Of a stretch of DNA of 64,000 nt, positions 27,121 to 36,232 are shown in pieces. The stretch spans positions 62,001 to 126,000 of the forward strand of contig JAOTXU010000008.1 in the NCBI GenBank assembly GCA_029862165.1, in the 5' to 3' direction. A program made the position numbers and the translations under genes. Every line of letters begins with the position of its first letter. Position 1 is the first letter of the stretch. This DNA is from Gammaproteobacteria bacterium. Its GTDB lineage: Bacteria; Pseudomonadota; Gammaproteobacteria; Steroidobacterales; JABDKV01. The notes below the pieces were generated by a model, which saw only the letters and a list, made by a program, of their open reading frames with translations, searched no databases and was not told where the DNA came from.

Positions 27121-27196
27121 CGCCGGCATCCTGCCGCGTAAGTTCTTACTACAGCCAACGTCCGTCTTTGCGAGGAGCGCGGCGACGAAGCAATCT
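27121..27196. repeat. Two dispersed-repeat remnants between the HD and hydrolase genes
   Basis: At 27121-27138 the sequence CGCCGGCATCCTGCCGCG is a degenerate copy of the REP-like hairpin found at 52541 and 62826. At 27163-27196 there is a 34-base sequence (core GCGAGGAGCGCGGCGACGA, then AGCAATCT) that closely resembles a repeat seen in many bacterial genomes with the core GCGAGGAGCGAAGCGACGAAGCAATC. The remaining spacer to 27350 includes another REP-like TCGCGGCAAGGATCC and shows no gene. Confidence 0.55.
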
Positions 27197-27350
27197 AACT
27201 AATCACGCGTTATTGAAGCTGAGTGCGTTGACCCTAGCCCCGGGGCGAGAGGGAATAGTTTCTTGTGGAATCGCGGCAAGGATCCAGGCGGGATTTTCCT
27301 GGCCATATCGTACGGCCTCTTCACCAGCCAATCATATAAAATGTGCGTCA

Positions 27351-28229
27351 ATGACACTGACCCGACAAAACGACACCGCCCCGCTAGCACGCGTCATCGT
27401 CAAGCATGCACGCGATGCGCTGATTGATGACCGGCAGATCGATGCACAATGGCGAGAGTTGAACTACCCGGCACGTCCCGATCTTTCCGCAGCGCTGGCC
27501 GAATACGACGAATTCGTTGCGGCGTTAAACAAGGCAGGTGCGGAACTGTATTTGCTTCCCCCCGACGAGAACACCGGACTTGACTCGCTGTATCCACGCG
27601 ACGCCGCTGTCATGTGCGAACACGGTGCGATCCTTTGCTCCATGGGCAAGGCCGCACGGCGCGGTGAACCAGCGGCCCTCAAATCGATGTTTAGACGTCT
27701 TGAAATTCCAGTCTGTGGCGAGATTTCCGGAGCGGGCCTGCTTGAGGGCGGTGATGTCGTGTGGCTGGGTGAACAGATACTGGCTGTGGGACTTGGTTAT
27801 CGTACCAATGCCGAGGGCATAGAACAGTTACGCGAATTGTTGACGGGCGTGATCGATGAGTTAATCGTGGTACCGCTACCCCATTGGCGCGGTCCCAATG
27901 ATGTCTTCCACTTGATGTCCATGATTAGCCCGATTGATTCAGATCTGGCAGCCGTATACTCGCCGTTATTGCCGGTGCCGTTTCGTGAGCGACTACTAAG
28001 CCTGGGCATAGAACTGGTTGAAATTCCTGACACGGAATTCGCCACACAAGCCTGCAACATTCTGGCCCTGGGTCCGCGCAATGTATTGATACCGGATGGC
28101 AATCCGCAGACACAATCCAGACTCGTCGACGCAAATGTGGCTGTGCATGTATATCGCGGCACCGAAATATCACAAAAAGGCGGTGGCGGCCCGACCTGTT
28201 TAACGCGACCGCTCGAACGCTATGCCTAG
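27351..28229 (+). CDS. Dimethylargininase/amidinotransferase-family hydrolase
   Basis: 292 residues from ATG 27351; an upstream extension of 61 codons runs through repeat sequence and is rejected. The protein has the pentein fold pattern of the DDAH/arginine-deiminase group: LYPRDAAVM (substrate-binding Asp), GAGLLEGGDVVW, the catalytic His in GPNDVFHLMSMISP, and the nucleophile C283 in GGGGPTCLTRPL. Family members release dimethylamine or ammonia from methylated or free guanidino compounds to give citrulline-type products. The betaine-type importer starts 57 bases downstream on the same strand, so a link to uptake of a methylated compound is possible (inference). Confidence 0.82.
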   Translation: MTLTRQNDTAPLARVIVKHARDALIDDRQIDAQWRELNYPARPDLSAALAEYDEFVAALNKAGAELYLLPPDENTGLDSLYPRDAAVMCEHGAILCSMGKAARRGEPAALKSMFRRLEIPVCGEISGAGLLEGGDVVWLGEQILAVGLGYRTNAEGIEQLRELLTGVIDELIVVPLPHWRGPNDVFHLMSMISPIDSDLAAVYSPLLPVPFRERLLSLGIELVEIPDTEFATQACNILALGPRNVLIPDGNPQTQSRLVDANVAVHVYRGTEISQKGGGGPTCLTRPLERYA

Positions 28230-28286
28230 CTTGGGGCAATCTTGCATCGTGATATTCTCCATCACCCCGGTGCCAAAGCCTCAAAC

Positions 28287-29027
28287 ATGAACGAACGATC
28301 CGCGGCAGTGGTCTTCGATTCGGTCACGAAGTCATTCGACGGCCGCCCCGTGATATCGAAAATTTCATTGGCACTTCCTGCGCAGCGTGTTACCGCGATC
28401 GTTGGCGAGAGCGGCAGCGGCAAGTCCACGTTGCTGGAGCACATCAACGGTCTGCATCGACCGGATGATGGAACCGTGACGGTTCTTGATCAGCGGATTG
28501 ACTATTCCGCCGTGAGTGAATTGCGCAAGCGCATCGGCTATGCCGTGCAGGGCGTCGGTTTGTTTCCACATCTGAGCGCCGGAGACAACACCGATCTGTT
28601 GGCGCAACTCAACAACTGGGGCCCCCAACGCATCGTCGAACGCAGGCAACGATTAATGCGCTTGATGGAACTGGAACCGGAACTGGCCAGCCGCTTTCCT
28701 CATCAGTTGTCGGGTGGGCAACAACAACGTTTTGGTCTGTGCCGGGCAATGATGTTGGAACCGCCGTTGCTGTTATTGGACGAACCGTTTTCCGGCGTCG
28801 ATCCTATTACCCGTCTGGGCATCCACCGCGAATTCCTGCAGTTACAAGAAACTGAACCGACAACGGTCGTCCTGGTAACCCATGACTTACGCGAGGCGCA
28901 GAAGCTGGCGCAGTACCTGGTAATCATCCGCGCCGGCCGTATTGTGCAGTCCGGCCCCACCGCGGAGCTTATTGCCGCGCCGGGCGACGACTACGTTGCC
29001 AGATTGTTCCGGGAACACCTGCAATGA
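28287..29027 (+). CDS. ABC transporter ATPase, osmoprotectant (glycine betaine/choline) type
   Basis: 246 residues from ATG 28287 (MNERSAAVVF). It has the ABC ATPase motifs Walker A GESGSGKST, Q-loop, signature LSGGQQQRFG, Walker B LLLLDEPFSGVDP and the H-loop THDLREAQ, as in the ProV/OpuCA branch. Unlike ProV and OpuCA it ends after the ATPase domain, with no C-terminal CBS pair. In the best-studied homologues that pair is the ionic-strength or c-di-AMP sensing element, so its absence suggests different control. Its stop overlaps the start of the permease gene by 4 bases (ATGA). Confidence 0.88.
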   Translation: MNERSAAVVFDSVTKSFDGRPVISKISLALPAQRVTAIVGESGSGKSTLLEHINGLHRPDDGTVTVLDQRIDYSAVSELRKRIGYAVQGVGLFPHLSAGDNTDLLAQLNNWGPQRIVERRQRLMRLMELEPELASRFPHQLSGGQQQRFGLCRAMMLEPPLLLLDEPFSGVDPITRLGIHREFLQLQETEPTTVVLVTHDLREAQKLAQYLVIIRAGRIVQSGPTAELIAAPGDDYVARLFREHLQ

Positions 29028-30490
29028 AGCAGCTTGCCGCATTTATCCTCTTGTGTGCGCTGTGTCTGCCGGCGGCGGGCGAACGAATTGTCGTGGGTAG
29101 CAAGACGTTTACTGAAAGTTATTTGCTAGCCGAAATAATGTCACAACTGCTCGAGGCATCTGGCTACGAGGTTGAACGGAAATATGGTTTTGGCGGCACG
29201 CTGGTGTGCTATCAGGCGCTGGTTAACGGCGAGATCGATGTTTATCCTGAATATACAGGCACCATCAGTGAAACCATTCTGCACCTGGATCCCAATCCGA
29301 GTCCCGCCGAAGTCGACGCCGCACTCTCGGCCATCGGGCTGCAGACCCTTACACCGATTGGCTTTAATAACACTTATGCAATAGCAGCTGGCCCGGAATT
29401 GGCGACCCGTTTGGGATTACAAAAAATTTCTGACCTGGGCGCACATCCGCAACTGCGGTTGGGCTTTAGTCACGAGTTTCGCGACCGTGACGATGGTTGG
29501 CCCGGTCTGGCCGGCGCTTATGGCCTTAACATGCCCACCCGTGGCATCGAGCACGGTTTGGCTTACCGGGCGATAGCAGACGGCAGTATCGATATTACCG
29601 ATGCCTATTCCACCGATGGTGATATCGCGCGTTATCAACTGGTTCTTCTGGACGACGACCGGCAGTTCTTTCCCCGCTATGACGCGCTGGCACTGGCCCG
29701 GCGCGCATTGCCGTCTGTAGCATTAACACAACTGGAGCGCCTGGCCGGGCAGATAGATGACGCCAAAATGCGGCAACTAAACAGCAGCGTCGTTGTGGAA
29801 AAAAAGGACATTGCGGTAGTCGCCCGGACTTTTCTCGCGACCAGCGGCCTGGTGGAAAATCGAACAGGTGCCATTGCTGACAACGCCTGGCGCCGATTGC
29901 TGCGCAATATTGTGCGGCATTTACAACTGACTGTGATTGCTTTGTTGCTTGCCTGTCTGGTCGGTGTGCCGGTTGCAATTCTTATCCACCGCTCCACGCT
30001 TGCCTCCGGTGGCGTGCTCTATGTGGCCGGTTTGCTACAGACTATACCGTCGATTGCCCTTCTTGCTCTGATGATTCCCTTGTTTGGGGTCGGTGTGTTC
30101 CCGGCAATTATTGCCTTATTTCTTTATTCGTTATTGCCGATCCTGCGTAACACCACTACCGCGTTAAAGAGCATCGACCCAGTATTGCGACGTGTCGCAA
30201 CGGGCATGGGTCTGACGACAACCCAGCAAGTGAAACACGTCATTTTCCCGCTGGCCATGCCAAACGTGTTGGCCGGTATACGCACTGCGGCAATTATCAG
30301 TATCGGTACGGCGACGCTGGCGGCATTTATCGGTGCCGGTGGCTTGGGCGAACCGATCGTGACCGGGCTGGCACTAAACGACACCAACCTTATATTACAG
30401 GGCGCTATTCCGGCGGCGCTGCTTGCGCTGGGCACCGAAATATTATTCGAGTTGATCGAGCGGCGGCTGATTCCGGCTCATCTGCGCTAG
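29024..30490 (+). CDS. Fused substrate-binding and permease subunit of a betaine/choline-type ABC importer
   Basis: 488 residues. A signal peptide (about 1-19, LCLPAAGERI) leads into an OpuC/YehZ-like binding domain (residues about 20-275): GSKTFTESYLLAEIMSQLLEA, GFGGTLVCYQALVNGEIDVYPEYTGT, and TDAYSTDGDIARYQL. A permease domain follows (about 300-488) with several helices and the EAA-like GMGLTTTQQVKHVIFPLAMPNV and GAGGLGEPIV. In the well-known OpuF/OpuA-type fusions the permease comes first; here the binding domain comes first. It works with the ATPase encoded upstream. Exact substrate (betaine, choline, or a related quaternary or methylated amine) cannot be read. Confidence 0.88.
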   Translation: MKQLAAFILLCALCLPAAGERIVVGSKTFTESYLLAEIMSQLLEASGYEVERKYGFGGTLVCYQALVNGEIDVYPEYTGTISETILHLDPNPSPAEVDAALSAIGLQTLTPIGFNNTYAIAAGPELATRLGLQKISDLGAHPQLRLGFSHEFRDRDDGWPGLAGAYGLNMPTRGIEHGLAYRAIADGSIDITDAYSTDGDIARYQLVLLDDDRQFFPRYDALALARRALPSVALTQLERLAGQIDDAKMRQLNSSVVVEKKDIAVVARTFLATSGLVENRTGAIADNAWRRLLRNIVRHLQLTVIALLLACLVGVPVAILIHRSTLASGGVLYVAGLLQTIPSIALLALMIPLFGVGVFPAIIALFLYSLLPILRNTTTALKSIDPVLRRVATGMGLTTTQQVKHVIFPLAMPNVLAGIRTAAIISIGTATLAAFIGAGGLGEPIVTGLALNDTNLILQGAIPAALLALGTEILFELIERRLIPAHLR

Positions 30491-30537: not shown

Positions 30538-30999
30538 CTATTCGATGCGGTTTTCGATGTCGGCCAGCAAAACCATCAGCTCGCGCAGACGTGCTTTGCC
30601 GACACGTTTCTCGATGCCCGCATAGATTGCCTCAGATTCTGGGGCAACTGAGGAAAACTTTGCGCGTCCGGAGGGCGTTAAAGAAATCAGGGAGCGCCGC
30701 TGGTCGCCTGCCACTGTTTCACGACTGATTAACCCATCGGTTTCCAAACGCTTGAGTATTCGCGTCAGACTCGGGGCAAGCAATACTGAGCGGCTCGCCA
30801 GCTCGCTCGTCTCGATACGTTCTTGCTCGGCAAGCACGCGGATGACTCGCCATTGCTGTTCGGTCAAACCGTGTTCCCGCAAAGAGGGCCGGAATTGATT
30901 CATGGCTGCTTCTCTGACTTTGAGCAGTGCCATCGGCAACGAGCGACTGATTCTGCGCATCGGTAGCGTGTTTTCGGATTTGTTGCGGTGCTTTGCCAT
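30538..30999 (-). CDS. hpaR: MarR-family regulator of aromatic degradation (HpaR-like)
   Basis: A 153-residue winged-helix MarR protein. The start RRISRSLPMALLKVREAAMNQFRP then LREHGLTEQQWRVIRVL matches the HpaR (homoprotocatechuate operon repressor) pattern; LASRSVLLAPSLTRILKRLETDGLISRE is the DNA-reading helix-turn-helix. HpaR in enterobacteria is a repressor released by aromatic ligands. Start is ATG 30999; ATG 30960 (MRRIS) is an alternative. It lies at the end of the aromatic cluster, separated from the FAH gene by a GC-rich tandem repeat. The perfect palindrome at 33112 is the obvious candidate for its operator (inference). Confidence 0.87.
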   Translation of the reverse strand: MAKHRNKSENTLPMRRISRSLPMALLKVREAAMNQFRPSLREHGLTEQQWRVIRVLAEQERIETSELASRSVLLAPSLTRILKRLETDGLISRETVAGDQRRSLISLTPSGRAKFSSVAPESEAIYAGIEKRVGKARLRELMVLLADIENRIE

Positions 31000-31010: not shown

Positions 31011-31053
31011 AGCCCCTCCCCCTAACCCCCTCCCCGAAGGGGAGGGGGAATAA
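31011..31053. repeat. GC-rich palindromic repeat (copy 1)
   Basis: A run of CCCTCCCCCTAACCCCCTCC followed by CCGAAGGGGAGGGGGAATAA forms a strong hairpin about GAA. The same element, in variant form, is present twice in the 36-kb repeat region (36503-36544 and 36682-36723). It lies just upstream of hpaR in that gene's reading direction. Confidence 0.7.
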
Positions 31054-31062
31054 GATTTTGCC

Positions 31063-31320
31063 CGCCCCGATTGAGGAATTCGCCCGCCCCGATTGAGGAG
31101 TTGGGGAATAGGAATTCGCCCGCCCGATTGAGGAGTTGGGGAATAGGAATTCGCCCGCCCGATTGAGGAGTTGGGGAATAGGAATTGGCCCGCCCCTATT
31201 GAGGAATTCGCGCGCCCGATTGAGGAGTTGGGGAATAGGAATTCGCGCGCCCGATTGAGGAGTTGGGGAATAGGAATTCGCCCGCCCGATTGGGGAGACA
31301 GGGAATAGGAATTCGCTCCC
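31063..31320. repeat. 35-bp tandem repeat (minisatellite) between hpaR and the FAH gene
   Basis: Units of 35 bp start at 31111, 31146, 31203, 31238 and 31273. Each starts GGAATTCGCCCGCCCGATTG and ends AGGAGTTGGGGAATA. A 36-bp unit lies at 31075 and a broken unit of 22 bp at 31181-31202. A degenerate partial unit closes it near 31320. Small changes (CGCGCGC for CGCCCGC, GGGAGACAG for GAGGAGTTG) separate the copies. Because 35 is not a multiple of 3, open frames through it are accidental. It fills the 331-bp gap and may insulate hpaR from the upstream operon or serve as a variable spacer (inference). Confidence 0.9.
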
Positions 31321-31330
31321 ACGTGAAATT

Positions 31331-32194
31331 TCAGGGCGTGTGTTCTGCTTCAACTTGATTACGCAAAATGCCGATGCCGGGCACTTCAACCTCAACGACA
31401 TCACCGGGACGCAGGTATTTTGGCGGATCAAAGCGCGCGCCGGCGCCATTTGGCGTTCCTGTGGCAATAATGTCGCCGGGTTTGAGCCGATAAAATGTGG
31501 ATAAATAACTGATCAGATAACGCAATGGGAACAGCATACTGTCTGTCGTGTCGTTCTGACGCTCCTCGCCATTAACACGCGTGATCACCTGCAACTCGCC
31601 CATGGGGTCGAGTTCGTCCGGCGTGACGAGCCACGGTCCCAGAGCGCCGCTGTGCTCGAAATTCTTGCCCTGTGTCACATTGAATTTTGCGTGACGCAGA
31701 AAATCGCGCAGCGAACCCTCGTTCATGATTGTCAGACCGGCCACGTACTCTTGCGCCTTTGCCTCGGGAATACGGCGACCCTCCTTGCCAATCACAATGA
31801 CGATCTCGCCTTCGTAATCGAGTTGATCCGATTCGGGCGGATCGATAATCGGCTGCTCGTGTCCCACCAGCGACTCGCGTGTACGCATAAATACGCTGGG
31901 ATATTGCGGTGGTTTGGAGCCGTCTTTATATTCTTCGTTGCGATTAGCGTAGTTCACACCGATGCAGATTACTTTTTCGGGGTTCGGAATTGTCGGCAGA
32001 TAGTCGATGTCGGCCAGACTAAAGTCCGGAGATGTTCTGCTGGCCAGTTGAGCCAGATCCCCCAGAGCGCCAGCACGTATGGCCGCGCGCAGGTCGGCAA
32101 AGTCGGGGCAATGCGTGCCCAGATCGACCACGCCACCTTCAACCAAAGCGCCGAATCTTGCCGCGCCGCCGTGTCGAAAACTTAAAAACTTCAT
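31331..32194 (-). CDS. Fumarylacetoacetate hydrolase-family enzyme (HpaG-like)
   Basis: A 287-residue FAH-superfamily protein. The start MKFLSFRHGG and the core NPEKVICIGVNYANRNEEY, DYEGEIVIVIGKEGRRI (metal-binding Glu pair), and GDIIATGTPNGAGARFDP are typical. In the homoprotocatechuate pathway the family supplies the decarboxylase/isomerase HpaG (often two fused domains) and, in a related branch, the hydratase HpaH; here only one single-domain copy is present. Its ATG overlaps the TGA of the aldolase-like gene (ATGA), so they form a two-gene operon on the minus strand. Position in the pathway is inferred from the neighbours. Confidence 0.82.
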   Translation of the reverse strand: MKFLSFRHGGAARFGALVEGGVVDLGTHCPDFADLRAAIRAGALGDLAQLASRTSPDFSLADIDYLPTIPNPEKVICIGVNYANRNEEYKDGSKPPQYPSVFMRTRESLVGHEQPIIDPPESDQLDYEGEIVIVIGKEGRRIPEAKAQEYVAGLTIMNEGSLRDFLRHAKFNVTQGKNFEHSGALGPWLVTPDELDPMGELQVITRVNGEERQNDTTDSMLFPLRYLISYLSTFYRLKPGDIIATGTPNGAGARFDPPKYLRPGDVVEVEVPGIGILRNQVEAEHTP

Positions 32195-33084
32195 AACAAA
32201 CCTGCTCTTTCGAGCACCCCGTCTAGTCTCTTTTCCAATTCAGGCGTGGCCGGCATCATAGGTAATCGATGCTCATTGGCCGGAATGATGCCGAGTTTCT
32301 TCATCATGTATTTCATCGGGATCGGATTGGTGTCATAGAACACTGCCTGATTCACCTCAAGCAGTCGGTCGTGTAACGCCCGGCCACCCGCCAGGTCACC
32401 CTTCCAAACGGCCTCCGCCATTTCTACGAGTACTTCCGGCCGCAGATTTCCGACCGCATTCATCAGTCCGCAAGCGCCGATACTCATCATCGGGAACGAC
32501 AGCTCTTCGAGTCCGACAAAAATACGAAAATCTCCGCCCAATGCATCCAGACATTCGGTGACAAACCCGAGATCGTTGACAGCGTGCTTCATGCCGACGA
32601 ATGTTGGTGACTTCTCACGCAGCGTCCTCATCGTGTCTAACGTGACGCTAACGGCGGTGCGACCGGGAATATGATAAATCATCCACGGCGTGTCGTGTGT
32701 AGCGGCAAGTTTCAGGTAGTACTGAATCAAACCGCGTTGTGGCGGACGGATGTAGTAAGGCGTGACTATGAGCAACGCATCGACACCGGCGTTCACGGCG
32801 TGCTTCGTCAGGTAGTCAGATTCGGCCAATGACTGAGACCCGGTCGCGGCGACGATGGGAACCTTTCCCTTCGCGGCTTCGATCGCTGTATCCACCAAAC
32901 GATTGCGCTCCTCAACTGTCAGGGTCGATGGCTCAGAAGTCGTGCCATTGACGAGGATGCCGTGAGTCCCCCGGCTGATCTGAAATTCCACCAGGCCTGC
33001 ATAGGCCTGGTAGTCCACCTCACCATCACTAAAAGGGGTGATGAGAGGCGGGATAGAACCCTTGATATTGCTGACATCCTGCAT
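32191..33084 (-). CDS. Dihydrodipicolinate synthase/N-acetylneuraminate lyase-family aldolase
   Basis: 297 residues from ATG 33084, preferred because GGAG lies 5 bases upstream; an ATG at 33099 overlaps that ribosome site. It is a class I (Schiff-base) aldolase of the DapA superfamily: GTTSE at about residues 47-51, Y137 in MIYHIPGRT, and the Schiff-base lysine K166 in FVGMKHAVND. DapA itself condenses pyruvate with aspartate semialdehyde; family members also perform retro-aldol cleavage of 2-keto-acids. Its place in an aromatic meta-cleavage operon, where a class II aldolase HpaI is expected, suggests it releases pyruvate from the ring-derived hydroxy-keto acid (inference). Confidence 0.82.
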   Translation of the reverse strand: MQDVSNIKGSIPPLITPFSDGEVDYQAYAGLVEFQISRGTHGILVNGTTSEPSTLTVEERNRLVDTAIEAAKGKVPIVAATGSQSLAESDYLTKHAVNAGVDALLIVTPYYIRPPQRGLIQYYLKLAATHDTPWMIYHIPGRTAVSVTLDTMRTLREKSPTFVGMKHAVNDLGFVTECLDALGGDFRIFVGLEELSFPMMSIGACGLMNAVGNLRPEVLVEMAEAVWKGDLAGGRALHDRLLEVNQAVFYDTNPIPMKYMMKKLGIIPANEHRLPMMPATPELEKRLDGVLERAGLL

Positions 33085-33111
33085 AGCGGCTCCATTCATA
33101 GCTTGACGGCT

Positions 33112-33135
33112 ATATACTTAACATGTTAAGTATAT
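33112..33135. promoter_or_regulatory. Perfect 24-bp palindrome within two facing promoters (probable HpaR operator)
   Basis: The half-site is ATATACTTAACA and its exact inverse follows. On the plus strand a TTGACG at 33103-33108 is 18 bases before TAAGTA (33127-33132). On the minus strand a TTGACC (33143-33138) is 17 bases before the mirror TAAGTA (33120-33115), both preceded by TGT. The palindrome thus covers the spacer and -10 region of both promoters, and each predicted leader is about 24 bases. A bound dimer would block both operons. The regulator is most likely the MarR protein at 30538 (inference). Confidence 0.75.
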
Positions 33136-33162
33136 CAGGTCAACCACTGCTGGATAATCGCA

Positions 33163-33564
33163 ATGCCCCACCAGATCATTGAGTACTCGGCCAACCTGGA
33201 CGATCGCCTCGACGTGCAGGATTTAGTCGATACGATGCACCATACCGCGGCAACCTGCGGCGTTTTCCCGCTGGCCGGGATTCGCACCCGGGCAGTACGG
33301 CGGGCGTATTACCATATCGCAGATGGTCACCCGGACAACACGTTTGTGAACGTCTATATGCGCATTGCACCGCGTCCGGAAGAGCTGCGCAAAAAGGCAG
33401 GGGATATTCTGTTTGATGCGCTTTGTGCTTACCTGAAACCACTGCAGGACAAAATGCCATTGGCAATCTCGTTTGAGATTCAGCAGTTGAACCCCGATCG
33501 GCGCCGCAAAAACAATCTGCGTGAATATATGAAGGAGCGCGGCAGTTACGTGCAGGAGCAATGA
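33163..33564 (+). CDS. hpaF: 5-carboxymethyl-2-hydroxymuconate delta-isomerase
   Basis: 133 residues of the CHMI/HpaF type in the tautomerase superfamily. It starts MPHQIIEYSANLDD, so the catalytic N-terminal proline is Pro2 after removal of Met. IADGHPDNTFVNVYMRIAPR and ISFEIQQLNPDRRRKNN fit the family. It shifts the double bond of 5-carboxymethyl-2-hydroxymuconate in the cytoplasm. It is the first gene of the plus-strand operon directly behind the palindromic promoter, with 1 base between its stop and the hpaE start. The start is ATG 33163, after a weak GGATAA site. Confidence 0.88.
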   Translation: MPHQIIEYSANLDDRLDVQDLVDTMHHTAATCGVFPLAGIRTRAVRRAYYHIADGHPDNTFVNVYMRIAPRPEELRKKAGDILFDALCAYLKPLQDKMPLAISFEIQQLNPDRRRKNNLREYMKERGSYVQEQ

Positions 33565-33565
33565 G

Positions 33566-35092
33566 ATGAGCACCGACTTCGAAAAAAACATCGCCGACGC
33601 CGAGGCGTTGCTGAACCCCTTTCGAAAAAACACGCTCGGTCACTTTGTCGACGGAAAATCGACTATCGGCAGCTCGGGCAAGACTTTCGAAAATGTTTCG
33701 CCTGTGAATAATGAATCAATCGGGCAAGTCGCTGCCGGCGATGCTCAGGAAGTTGACGCCGCGTGCAAGTCCGCTGCGGCCGCGTTTCCGGCATGGAAAG
33801 CGATGAAAGGCGGCGAGCGGCGCAAGCTGCTTAACAACGTCGCCGATGCTATTGAAGCCCGTTCACGGGATATTTCACTGGTCGAAAGCCTGGACACCGG
33901 TCAGCCGATCCGTTTCATGGGCAAGGCGGCAATCCGTGGTGCAGCAAACTTCCGCTTCTTTGCCGATCGTGCCCCGGACGCGCGCAATGGCCAGGCGCTA
34001 CCACAGGATGAACACATCAACTACACGACGCGCCAACCGATCGGGCCGGTTGGTGTGATCACGCCCTGGAATACACCGTTCATGTTGTCAACGTGGAAGA
34101 TTGCCCCGGCGCTTGCCGCTGGCTGCACCGTCGTACACAAGCCGGCGGAGTTCAGCCCGTTGTCCGCAACAATGCTGGCCGAGATTTGCAGTGAGGCGGG
34201 TTTGCCCGACGGTGTGCTTAACCTGGTCAATGGGAAGGGCGAGAGCGCTGGCAAATCCCTTACCGAGCACCCGGATATCAAAGCAATCGCTTTTGTCGGT
34301 GAATCGCGGACGGGCACGATGATTCAGGTACAAGGCGCGCCTACGCTGAAGCGTGTGCACTTCGAACTCGGTGGTAAGAACCCGGTAATCGTCTTTGATG
34401 ACGCCGATCTGGACCGGGCGTTGGATGCCGCGATTTTTATGATCTATAGCCTCAATGGCGAGCGCTGCACCTCCTCCAGCCGCTTACTGGTGCAATCGAC
34501 GATCTACGATGAATTCGTTGCCCGGGTCGTGGAACGTGTGAATAATTTACGCGTCGGCCATCCGCTGGACCCGGCTACCGAAGTCGGACCGATGATTCAC
34601 AAGAGTCATTTCGACAAGGTCTGTGGATATTTCGACATAGCCAAAACCGACGGTGCAACCATCGCCGCAGGGGGTCGGGAATCCGATGTCGGCGGCGGAG
34701 CGGGAAACTATCTGCAGCCAACGCTGTTCACACAGGCGCGCAACGACATGCGCATCGCTCAGGAAGAAATCTTCGGTCCTGTGCTGACCGCCATTCCGTT
34801 CGCTGATGAGGCCGACGCAATCGAGATTGCCAACGACATCGAGTATGGGTTGGCCGGCTATCTCTGGACCAACGACATCGGCCGGGGTCACCGTATTGCC
34901 CAGGCACTCGACGCCGGTATGATTTGGGTGAACTCCGAGAACAACCGTCATCTGCCAGCACCATTTGGTGGCATGAAAGCCAGCGGTATCGGTCGTGATG
35001 GTGGTGACTACAGTTTCGATTTTTATATGGAAACAAAAAATATTTGTGTCGCACTGGGCACGCATCGGGTGCCACAGCTCGGCAAGGGCTAA
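33566..35092 (+). CDS. hpaE: 5-carboxymethyl-2-hydroxymuconate semialdehyde dehydrogenase
   Basis: A 508-residue NAD(P)-dependent aldehyde dehydrogenase of the HpaE/CHMS type. The catalytic cysteine is C301 in NGERCTSSSRLL, the general base E267 in FELGGKNP, and the cofactor-binding lysine lies in TVVHKPAEFSPLS. Its C-terminus is ASGIGRDGGDYSFDFYMETKNI. It oxidises the ring-cleavage semialdehyde to the dicarboxylate. Its position between the isomerase and the dioxygenase genes supports the assignment over general aldehyde dehydrogenases. Start ATG 33566; the LigA-like gene follows 11 bases after its stop. Confidence 0.88.
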   Translation: MSTDFEKNIADAEALLNPFRKNTLGHFVDGKSTIGSSGKTFENVSPVNNESIGQVAAGDAQEVDAACKSAAAAFPAWKAMKGGERRKLLNNVADAIEARSRDISLVESLDTGQPIRFMGKAAIRGAANFRFFADRAPDARNGQALPQDEHINYTTRQPIGPVGVITPWNTPFMLSTWKIAPALAAGCTVVHKPAEFSPLSATMLAEICSEAGLPDGVLNLVNGKGESAGKSLTEHPDIKAIAFVGESRTGTMIQVQGAPTLKRVHFELGGKNPVIVFDDADLDRALDAAIFMIYSLNGERCTSSSRLLVQSTIYDEFVARVVERVNNLRVGHPLDPATEVGPMIHKSHFDKVCGYFDIAKTDGATIAAGGRESDVGGGAGNYLQPTLFTQARNDMRIAQEEIFGPVLTAIPFADEADAIEIANDIEYGLAGYLWTNDIGRGHRIAQALDAGMIWVNSENNRHLPAPFGGMKASGIGRDGGDYSFDFYMETKNICVALGTHRVPQLGKG

Positions 35093-35103
35093 AGAGCATT
35101 GTT

Positions 35104-35406
35104 ATGAGCCTCTACTATGTACAGAAGCTGCTCTATCAGTTGAATCGCGATTCTTATGTGCGCAAACGCTTTGACGATGATTTTGATTTGCTGCTGGCCG
35201 AGTACGAGTTGACGCCGGAAGAAACCGAGGCAATCCGCAAACCCGACATCGGGCTACTGTATGTGCTCGGGGTCAACGGCCAGATACTGATGCACTACGC
35301 AGCAATGCGTGACTACGAGTGGGACGAATACCTGGCGGCTATGCGCAAGGGACTCAAAGATCACGGACCCGTGCGCGCCGGACTTTACGCCACGGTGTGG
35401 GAGTAG
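35104..35406 (+). CDS. LigA-type small subunit of an extradiol ring-cleavage dioxygenase
   Basis: 100 residues from ATG 35104; the longer in-frame extension overlaps hpaE and is rejected. It is all-helical with SLYYVQKLLYQLNRD near the start and a DIGLLYVLGVNGQILMHYAA segment, the pattern of LigA-like alpha subunits of protocatechuate 4,5-dioxygenase. The LigA subunit lids the active site of the LigB partner and contributes to substrate fit. The LigB gene starts 4 bases after its stop, so the two are made together. E. coli-type HpaD enzymes lack such a separate subunit. Confidence 0.83.
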   Translation: MSLYYVQKLLYQLNRDSYVRKRFDDDFDLLLAEYELTPEETEAIRKPDIGLLYVLGVNGQILMHYAAMRDYEWDEYLAAMRKGLKDHGPVRAGLYATVWE

Positions 35407-35410
35407 TGAG

Positions 35411-36232
35411 ATGAGTTTGGTCTACGCAGGCGCGTGCAGCCACGCCCCCGGCATTACCGGCCGCGCCGAACGTGCTGATCCGGAACTACGCGAGAGTTTC
35501 TACAAAAACTTCCGCAGGCTCGGTCAGGAAATTCATGACGCCAAACCTGACGCGCTCGTAATCATCGGTGCCGAACATTTTGCCAATTTTTTTATGGACA
35601 ACATGCCGGCTATCTGCGTCGGCATGGCCGACCACTACGAAAGCCCGATTGAAGACGAACAATGGCTGGGTATTCAACGTACGCGAGTCCCCGGTAATGC
35701 GGAACTATCCAGACGACTGATCGAACGCATCCTGCAATCGTCCGATGTCGCTTATGCCGAAGAGTGGAAATTCGATCATGGCGTCGCCGTACCACTCAAT
35801 TTTCTCACCCCCGACTACGATATCCCGATCATCCCGGTGAATATCAATTGTCAGGGTCCGCCACTGATTCCCTTACACCGGGCTTACGCATTCGGACAAG
35901 CTCTGCGCACGGCTATCGATGGCATACCAGAACGCATCGCCGTGGTTTGCACGGGTGGCATCTCACATTGGCCGGCAACACCGGATTCGGGCAAAATCAA
36001 TGAAGCCTGGGACCGGGAGTTTCTTGACCGGTTTATCAACAACCGCCGCGATGAAATATTGTCTTACACAGACGAAGAAACCTATCGTGACGCCGGTCAG
36101 GGCGGATTTGAGATTCGTACCTTTATCGCTTTAGCGGGTCTTTGCGGGGGTGCAACCGGGGAACTGTATTTTTACGCGCCGATTCCGATCTTTGCTGTCG
36201 GTTGTACGGTCGCAAGGATGAATCTGTCGTAG
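35411..36232 (+). CDS. LigB-family catalytic subunit of an extradiol dioxygenase (homoprotocatechuate-type)
   Basis: 273 residues from ATG 35411. It is a class III (LigB superfamily) extradiol dioxygenase. The Fe(II) ligands are H11 (ACSHAPG), H56 (GAEHFANFF) and E234 (GGFEIRT), and the active-site histidines are H123 (FDHGVAVP) and H186 (GISHWP). It opens the catechol ring next to the hydroxyls. Because hpaE and hpaF lie upstream in the same unit, homoprotocatechuate (3,4-dihydroxyphenylacetate) is the likely substrate; protocatechuate or gallate-type substrates are alternatives. It is the last gene of the operon. Confidence 0.85.
   Translation: MSLVYAGACSHAPGITGRAERADPELRESFYKNFRRLGQEIHDAKPDALVIIGAEHFANFFMDNMPAICVGMADHYESPIEDEQWLGIQRTRVPGNAELSRRLIERILQSSDVAYAEEWKFDHGVAVPLNFLTPDYDIPIIPVNINCQGPPLIPLHRAYAFGQALRTAIDGIPERIAVVCTGGISHWPATPDSGKINEAWDREFLDRFINNRRDEILSYTDEETYRDAGQGGFEIRTFIALAGLCGGATGELYFYAPIPIFAVGCTVARMNLS

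Follow-up and report, generated by a model that had tools for sequence, protein, structure and literature searches.

A perfect palindrome between divergent homoprotocatechuate operons is a predicted HpaR operator

Introduction

A perfect 24-bp palindrome lies between two divergent operons in the 64,000-nucleotide stretch of DNA analysed here (hereafter the window). Which regulator binds this palindrome, and can a single site control both operons? A preliminary description of the sequence had placed the palindrome inside two facing promoters of an aromatic-degradation cluster and had named a MarR/HpaR-like protein encoded nearby as its probable binding partner. HpaR sites footprinted in Yersinia have the form TTAA-N4-TTAA and are similar to those of Escherichia coli W, and one of them overlaps a -10 element (PMC7180172). 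In this study, we examined the gene context of the palindrome, its conservation in other genomes, the regulator and the candidate promoters.

Results

Gene cluster around the palindrome

The palindrome separates two operons of a homoprotocatechuate meta-cleavage cluster (Table 1). Outward from it, the minus operon is composed of a gene for a DapA-like aldolase, an HpaG-like gene of the fumarylacetoacetate-hydrolase (FAH) family and hpaR, and the plus operon of hpaF, hpaE and then the genes of a LigAB-type ring-cleavage dioxygenase, small subunit before large. The hpaR, hpaF, hpaE, LigAB-type dioxygenase, FAH and DapA-like genes were all recognized by profiles, so the assignment to an aromatic-degradation cluster was right, and hpaR is linked to a homoprotocatechuate meta-cleavage cluster as expected for an HpaR operator. 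There are 63-78 bp between the two divergent genes, and the DapA-like gene may start at 33084 rather than 33099. Besides its best match, its product scores 253.7 bits against the dapA model TIGR00674, above the cut-off of that model.

Table 1. Features of the hpa locus and their positions in the window
Feature	Position	Strand	Evidence
hpaR, MarR-family repressor	30538..30999	-	TIGR02337, 164.6 bits against a curated cut-off of 121.2
FAH-family gene, HpaG-like, single domain	31331..32194	-	PF01557; TIGR02303 169 bits, under cut-off
DapA-superfamily aldolase (HpaI-NOT-DapA-like)	32191..33099	-	best match TIGR02313, 288 bits, under cut-off of 396.7
TTGACG, candidate -35 toward hpaF	33103..33108	+	hexamer present
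Perfect 24-bp palindrome, predicted HpaR operator	33112..33135	no strand	exact, unique in genome
Conserved operator core TTAACATGTTAA (TTAA-N4-TTAA)	33118..33129	no strand	conservation and published HpaR footprint (PMC7180172)
TTAAGT/TAAGTA, weak candidate -10 toward hpaF	33126..33132	+	7.4 / 5.9 bits in total with TTGACG
TGATATACT, extended -10 candidate toward DapA-like gene	33129..33137	-	9.9 bits; -35 TTATCC at 33157-33152
TTGACC, candidate -35 toward DapA-like gene, as first proposed	33138..33143	-	hexamer present
hpaF, 5-carboxymethyl-2-hydroxymuconate isomerase	33163..33564	+	PF02962
hpaE, CHMS dehydrogenase	33566..35092	+	TIGR02299, 819.6 bits against a cut-off of 638
LigA-like small subunit, extradiol dioxygenase	35095..35406	+	PF07746
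LigB-like catalytic subunit, extradiol dioxygenase	35393..36232	+	PF02900

The lower homoprotocatechuate pathway is present, yet no HpaB-type hydroxylase was found in the whole genome. HpaB, HpaH and HpaI have no detectable relative in this genome, so any inducer, upper pathway or source of substrate named for it is tentative. Among 80 hpa loci, 17 carry the DapA-like aldolase gene, none of them alongside relatives of HpaH or HpaI. Other hydratase-aldolases of the DapA superfamily combine hydration and aldol cleavage, and by analogy the enzyme encoded here may do both.

The palindrome and its conserved core

The palindrome ATATACTTAACATGTTAAGTATAT is exact, as had been described, and has no spacer; the next-longest perfect palindromes of the window are 14 bp. 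When the window was shuffled 40 times with dinucleotides preserved, 38 of the shuffles had a longest arm of 7-9 bp, one of 10 bp and one of 12 bp. Its length is therefore unusual by itself (about one in 40 windows) but not decisive. Length alone is suggestive, and the evidence that matters is comparative. The centre reads TTAA CATG TTAA, which is the TTAA-N4-TTAA arrangement of HpaR-type operators.

For the comparison, 80 loci with HpaE relatives were taken from public genomes, plus some hpaR loci from the class, and the divergent gap between hpa genes was readable in 47 loci from other genomes. The core TTAACATGTTAA was found exactly in 21 of these 47 gaps and in 30 when up to one mismatch was allowed, whereas 59 scrambled palindromes with the half-site permuted and the composition kept gave on average 0 exact matches and 0.05 with at most one mismatch. 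The core thus has the same position in the hpa loci of other genomes, including the divergent gaps of Woeseiaceae, Rhodospirillales, Bradyrhizobium and Mameliella. It is hardly credible that this AT-rich inverted repeat arose by chance, or forms a terminator-like structure, and plays no part in regulation: an equally long palindrome did appear in one of 40 shuffled windows, but the identical 12-bp core lies in the same gap of 21 other loci and the scrambled controls gave none. We rejected chance on this conservation across distant genomes, and the terminator because no GC-rich stem with a run of T was called at the palindrome.

Presence of the core follows that of hpaR. Of 41 loci with a nearby hpaR, 29 have the core when up to one mismatch is allowed, versus one of six without hpaR; the other 12 hpaR loci lack it within one mismatch in the gap examined. 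The lone core-bearing locus without hpaR is L008, whose contig breaks off within the FAH gene, before the expected position of hpaR.

The full 24-bp symmetry is not what is conserved, and symmetry fades beyond the core. The base beside the core is symmetric in 4 of 21 sites, and of all sites read, L023 alone has another uninterrupted palindrome of 24 bp, whose flanks differ. The conserved unit is therefore the 12-bp core, usually with AT-rich flanks, and the 24-bp perfection is local. Since hpaF is absent from the other genomes of the same family that were examined, there is no closely related copy of the gap to align.

Within the 3.34 Mb genome, TTAACATGTTAA has one exact copy, and the inner 18 bases of the palindrome, TACTTAACATGTTAAGTA, occur at a single place even with up to three mismatches allowed. 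A search for a wider regulon found TTAAYNNRTTAA at three places in the genome versus 7 for its reversed control; allowing one mismatch in TTAACATGTTAA added one further place (C17, L115), a total no higher than that of the reversed control. Because neither count exceeds its control, no further sites are claimed.

The HpaR regulator

The putative regulator is 44% identical to HpaR of E. coli BL21 over 129 residues, and it is the only protein of this genome above the HpaR cut-off. Its nearest solved structures are 2fbi, 7el2 (HpaR) and 5aip, and the residue numbering of 5aip agrees with that of NadR in PMC4841544. NadR of Neisseria meningitidis, a MarR protein that is HpaR-like and responds to 4-hydroxyphenylacetate (4-HPA), holds the carboxylate of 4-HPA via Ser9, Trp39, Arg43 and Tyr115 (PMC4841544). 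These contacts are conserved here, as the four residues align without gaps with Ser20, Trp50, Arg54 and Tyr126. NadR differs in its target gene and at other positions: Asp36 is replaced by Glu47, and Asn11 and His7, which are required for the response to 4-HPA (PMC4841544), by Pro22 and Ser18. The conserved contacts suggest that the inducer is likely to be of the hydroxyphenylacetate type.

It is very improbable that the palindrome is bound by another regulator, such as a MarR paralogue or a TetR-type protein like FabR, and that HpaR acts elsewhere. FabR was located at the hpaR/hpaG intergenic region of Salmonella by ChIP, without an effect on expression (PMC4804515), and some related loci have HpaR paralogues with variant sites of their own (TTAATATATTAA). 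Against this, the core tracks hpaR across several bacterial classes and equals the footprinted HpaR site, and one protein over the HpaR cut-off with one core in the genome is the pattern of a local regulator. The predicted binding of HpaR at the palindrome is strongly supported by these comparisons.

Candidate promoters over the operator

In the window, TTGACG on the plus strand and TTGACC on the minus strand are present, and their spacings to TAAGTA are 18 and 17, as had been proposed. TAAGTA is, however, poor as a -10 element, with two of six consensus positions, a score of -1.0 bits and promoter totals of 5.9 and 5.8 bits on a scale that is rough in absolute terms (it uses approximate E. 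coli sigma-70 frequencies). A consensus promoter scan called none at the palindrome. A better candidate on the plus strand is TTGACG-N17-TTAAGT (7.4 bits), which 13% of shuffles matched, and on the minus strand TTATCC-N17-TATACT with the extended -10 TGA (9.9 bits), which was equalled in 21 of 1000 shuffles (2%). On the two strands the best -10 candidates lie in different places, so a shared symmetric -10 is not seen in the window. Leaders of about 24 nucleotides, also proposed, hold only if the weak TAAGTA serves as the -10 and translation of the minus gene begins at the ATG at 33084, which has a GGAG Shine-Dalgarno sequence; the alternative start is the ATG at 33099. Whichever -10 is chosen, the operator would cover the promoter core, and the proposed repression is therefore independent of the choice.

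The predicted promoters of relatives are clearer. In nine Woeseia-type loci, TTGAYN-N16/17-TATRCT on the plus strand and a TTGAAN-N17 promoter on the minus strand meet in one short near-palindrome that adjoins the core. This shared -10 near-palindrome is AGTATACT in seven of the nine, with variants in L021 and L055, and both promoter scores were reached in 0 or 1 of 1000 shuffles of the same 100 bases. In four Rhodospirillales loci (L010, L011, L013 and L014), TTGACN-N16-TAACAT is found on both strands with the -10s overlapping at the operator centre; this pair is less significant (1 to 10 of 1000 shuffles). TTGACN lies upstream of the core in relatives too, about 12 bp farther away than in the window. 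Overlap of the operator with the -10 or start region is thus clear in relatives, whereas the matches in the window are modest. The proposal of promoters on both strands that share the operator is strongly supported in relatives, but the -10s and start sites given for the window are weakly supported.

We consider it unlikely that HpaR binds here and represses one operon only, the other having a separate promoter outside the palindrome. The weak plus-strand match in the window and a minus-strand candidate that departs from the mirror-image scheme would fit such an arrangement; the short distance between the two genes and the overlap of both-strand promoters with the core in relatives argue against it. 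The reading of these sequences that we favour is that one dimer controls both operons jointly.

Discussion

The palindrome is very probably the operator of the HpaR encoded at 30538-30999, whose dimer would keep both divergent operons off until a ligand releases it. That an HpaR-bound operator could switch both operons, as the preliminary description suggested, is well supported by the TTAA-N4-TTAA site, the conservation of the core, its association with hpaR and the identity of the regulator.

From sequence comparison we infer that HpaR binds and represses, to which ligand it responds and which exact promoter elements act in this genome, and propose the following mechanism: An HpaR dimer would occupy TTAACATGTTAA, cover each of the two divergent promoters at its -10 or start region and bar RNA polymerase from either strand. 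Both halves of the meta-cleavage pathway would be kept off, and probably hpaR too, as the third gene of the minus operon. A ligand such as 4-hydroxyphenylacetate or 3,4-dihydroxyphenylacetate would bind the dimer and release it, and both operons would be turned on together.

The predicted operator of the aromatic-acid sensor HpaR is well preserved, widely conserved and essentially ordinary, and it belongs to a known kind. As in the hpa-meta systems of E. coli W and Yersinia pseudotuberculosis, a TTAA-N4-TTAA palindrome and a MarR-family HpaR are found, and the divergent gap lies beside the homoprotocatechuate operon. In E. coli BL21, TAATCATTAATATGTTAATGATTA lies beside hpaG, with TTAATATGTTAA as the site equivalent to the core; its central bases are TATG, whereas those of the core here are CATG. 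In BL21, hpaR itself faces hpaG across the gap; here two enzyme operons face each other and hpaR is the third gene of one of them. Yersinia uses two HpaR sites, whereas one is seen here. With the present data, the range of the HpaR operator reaches beyond enteric bacteria to include a DapA/LigAB-type hpa cluster, and the sharp consensus TTAACATGTTAA is usable for assigning HpaR regulons by sequence.

The less ordinary feature is found in relatives, where operator and bidirectional promoter are predicted to form one fused, conserved element. The Woeseia-type hpaR-FAH-DapA/hpaF-hpaE-ligAB loci (L005, L006, L008, L015, L024, L029, L037 and L055) have the gene order found here and the core CTTAACATGTTAA. 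They differ in that TTGAYN-N16/17-TATACT on the plus strand and a TTGAAN-N17-TATACT-type promoter on the minus strand share AGTATACT, or a close variant, by the core; in the window the left-hand TTGACG is closer by about 12 bp, and the palindrome reaches a length of 24 bp. The predicted promoters of relatives resemble the bidirectional promoters of Warman and Grainger (PMC12825309, PMC10268837), in which a symmetric -10 is shared by both directions. However, the inferred spacing of start sites in relatives is about 21 bp, the usual one being 18, a repressor site is built in, and the window lacks a shared -10. We lean towards the idea that DapA-type hpa loci (Woeseia-like and Rhodospirillales) combine the HpaR operator and a bidirectional promoter in one element. 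The -10s of opposite strands would overlap or abut one another as well as the operator, so that one dimer, and one polymerase at a time, would control both halves of the pathway. Repression of bidirectional promoters could naturally be studied on this conserved arrangement, in which two predicted promoters and one operator overlap.

Some related loci carry HpaR paralogues that are more distant (34-37% identity). Just upstream of them lie variant cores, TTAATATATTAA or TTAATATGTTAA (L024 3318-3333, L029 3303-3318, L037 2323-2338 and L055 3250), in tandem in three loci. These paralogues are probably autoregulated sister regulators with shifted specificity.

In the window, a tandem repeat of about 36 bp, AGGAATTCGCCCGCCCGATTGAGGAGTTGGGGAAT, fills 31038-31316 between the FAH gene and hpaR and has no copy elsewhere in the genome. 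The region adjoining hpaR on its other side (27168-30490) encodes a dimethylargininase-like hydrolase and then a glycine-betaine-type ABC transporter, in which the binding protein and the permease are fused.
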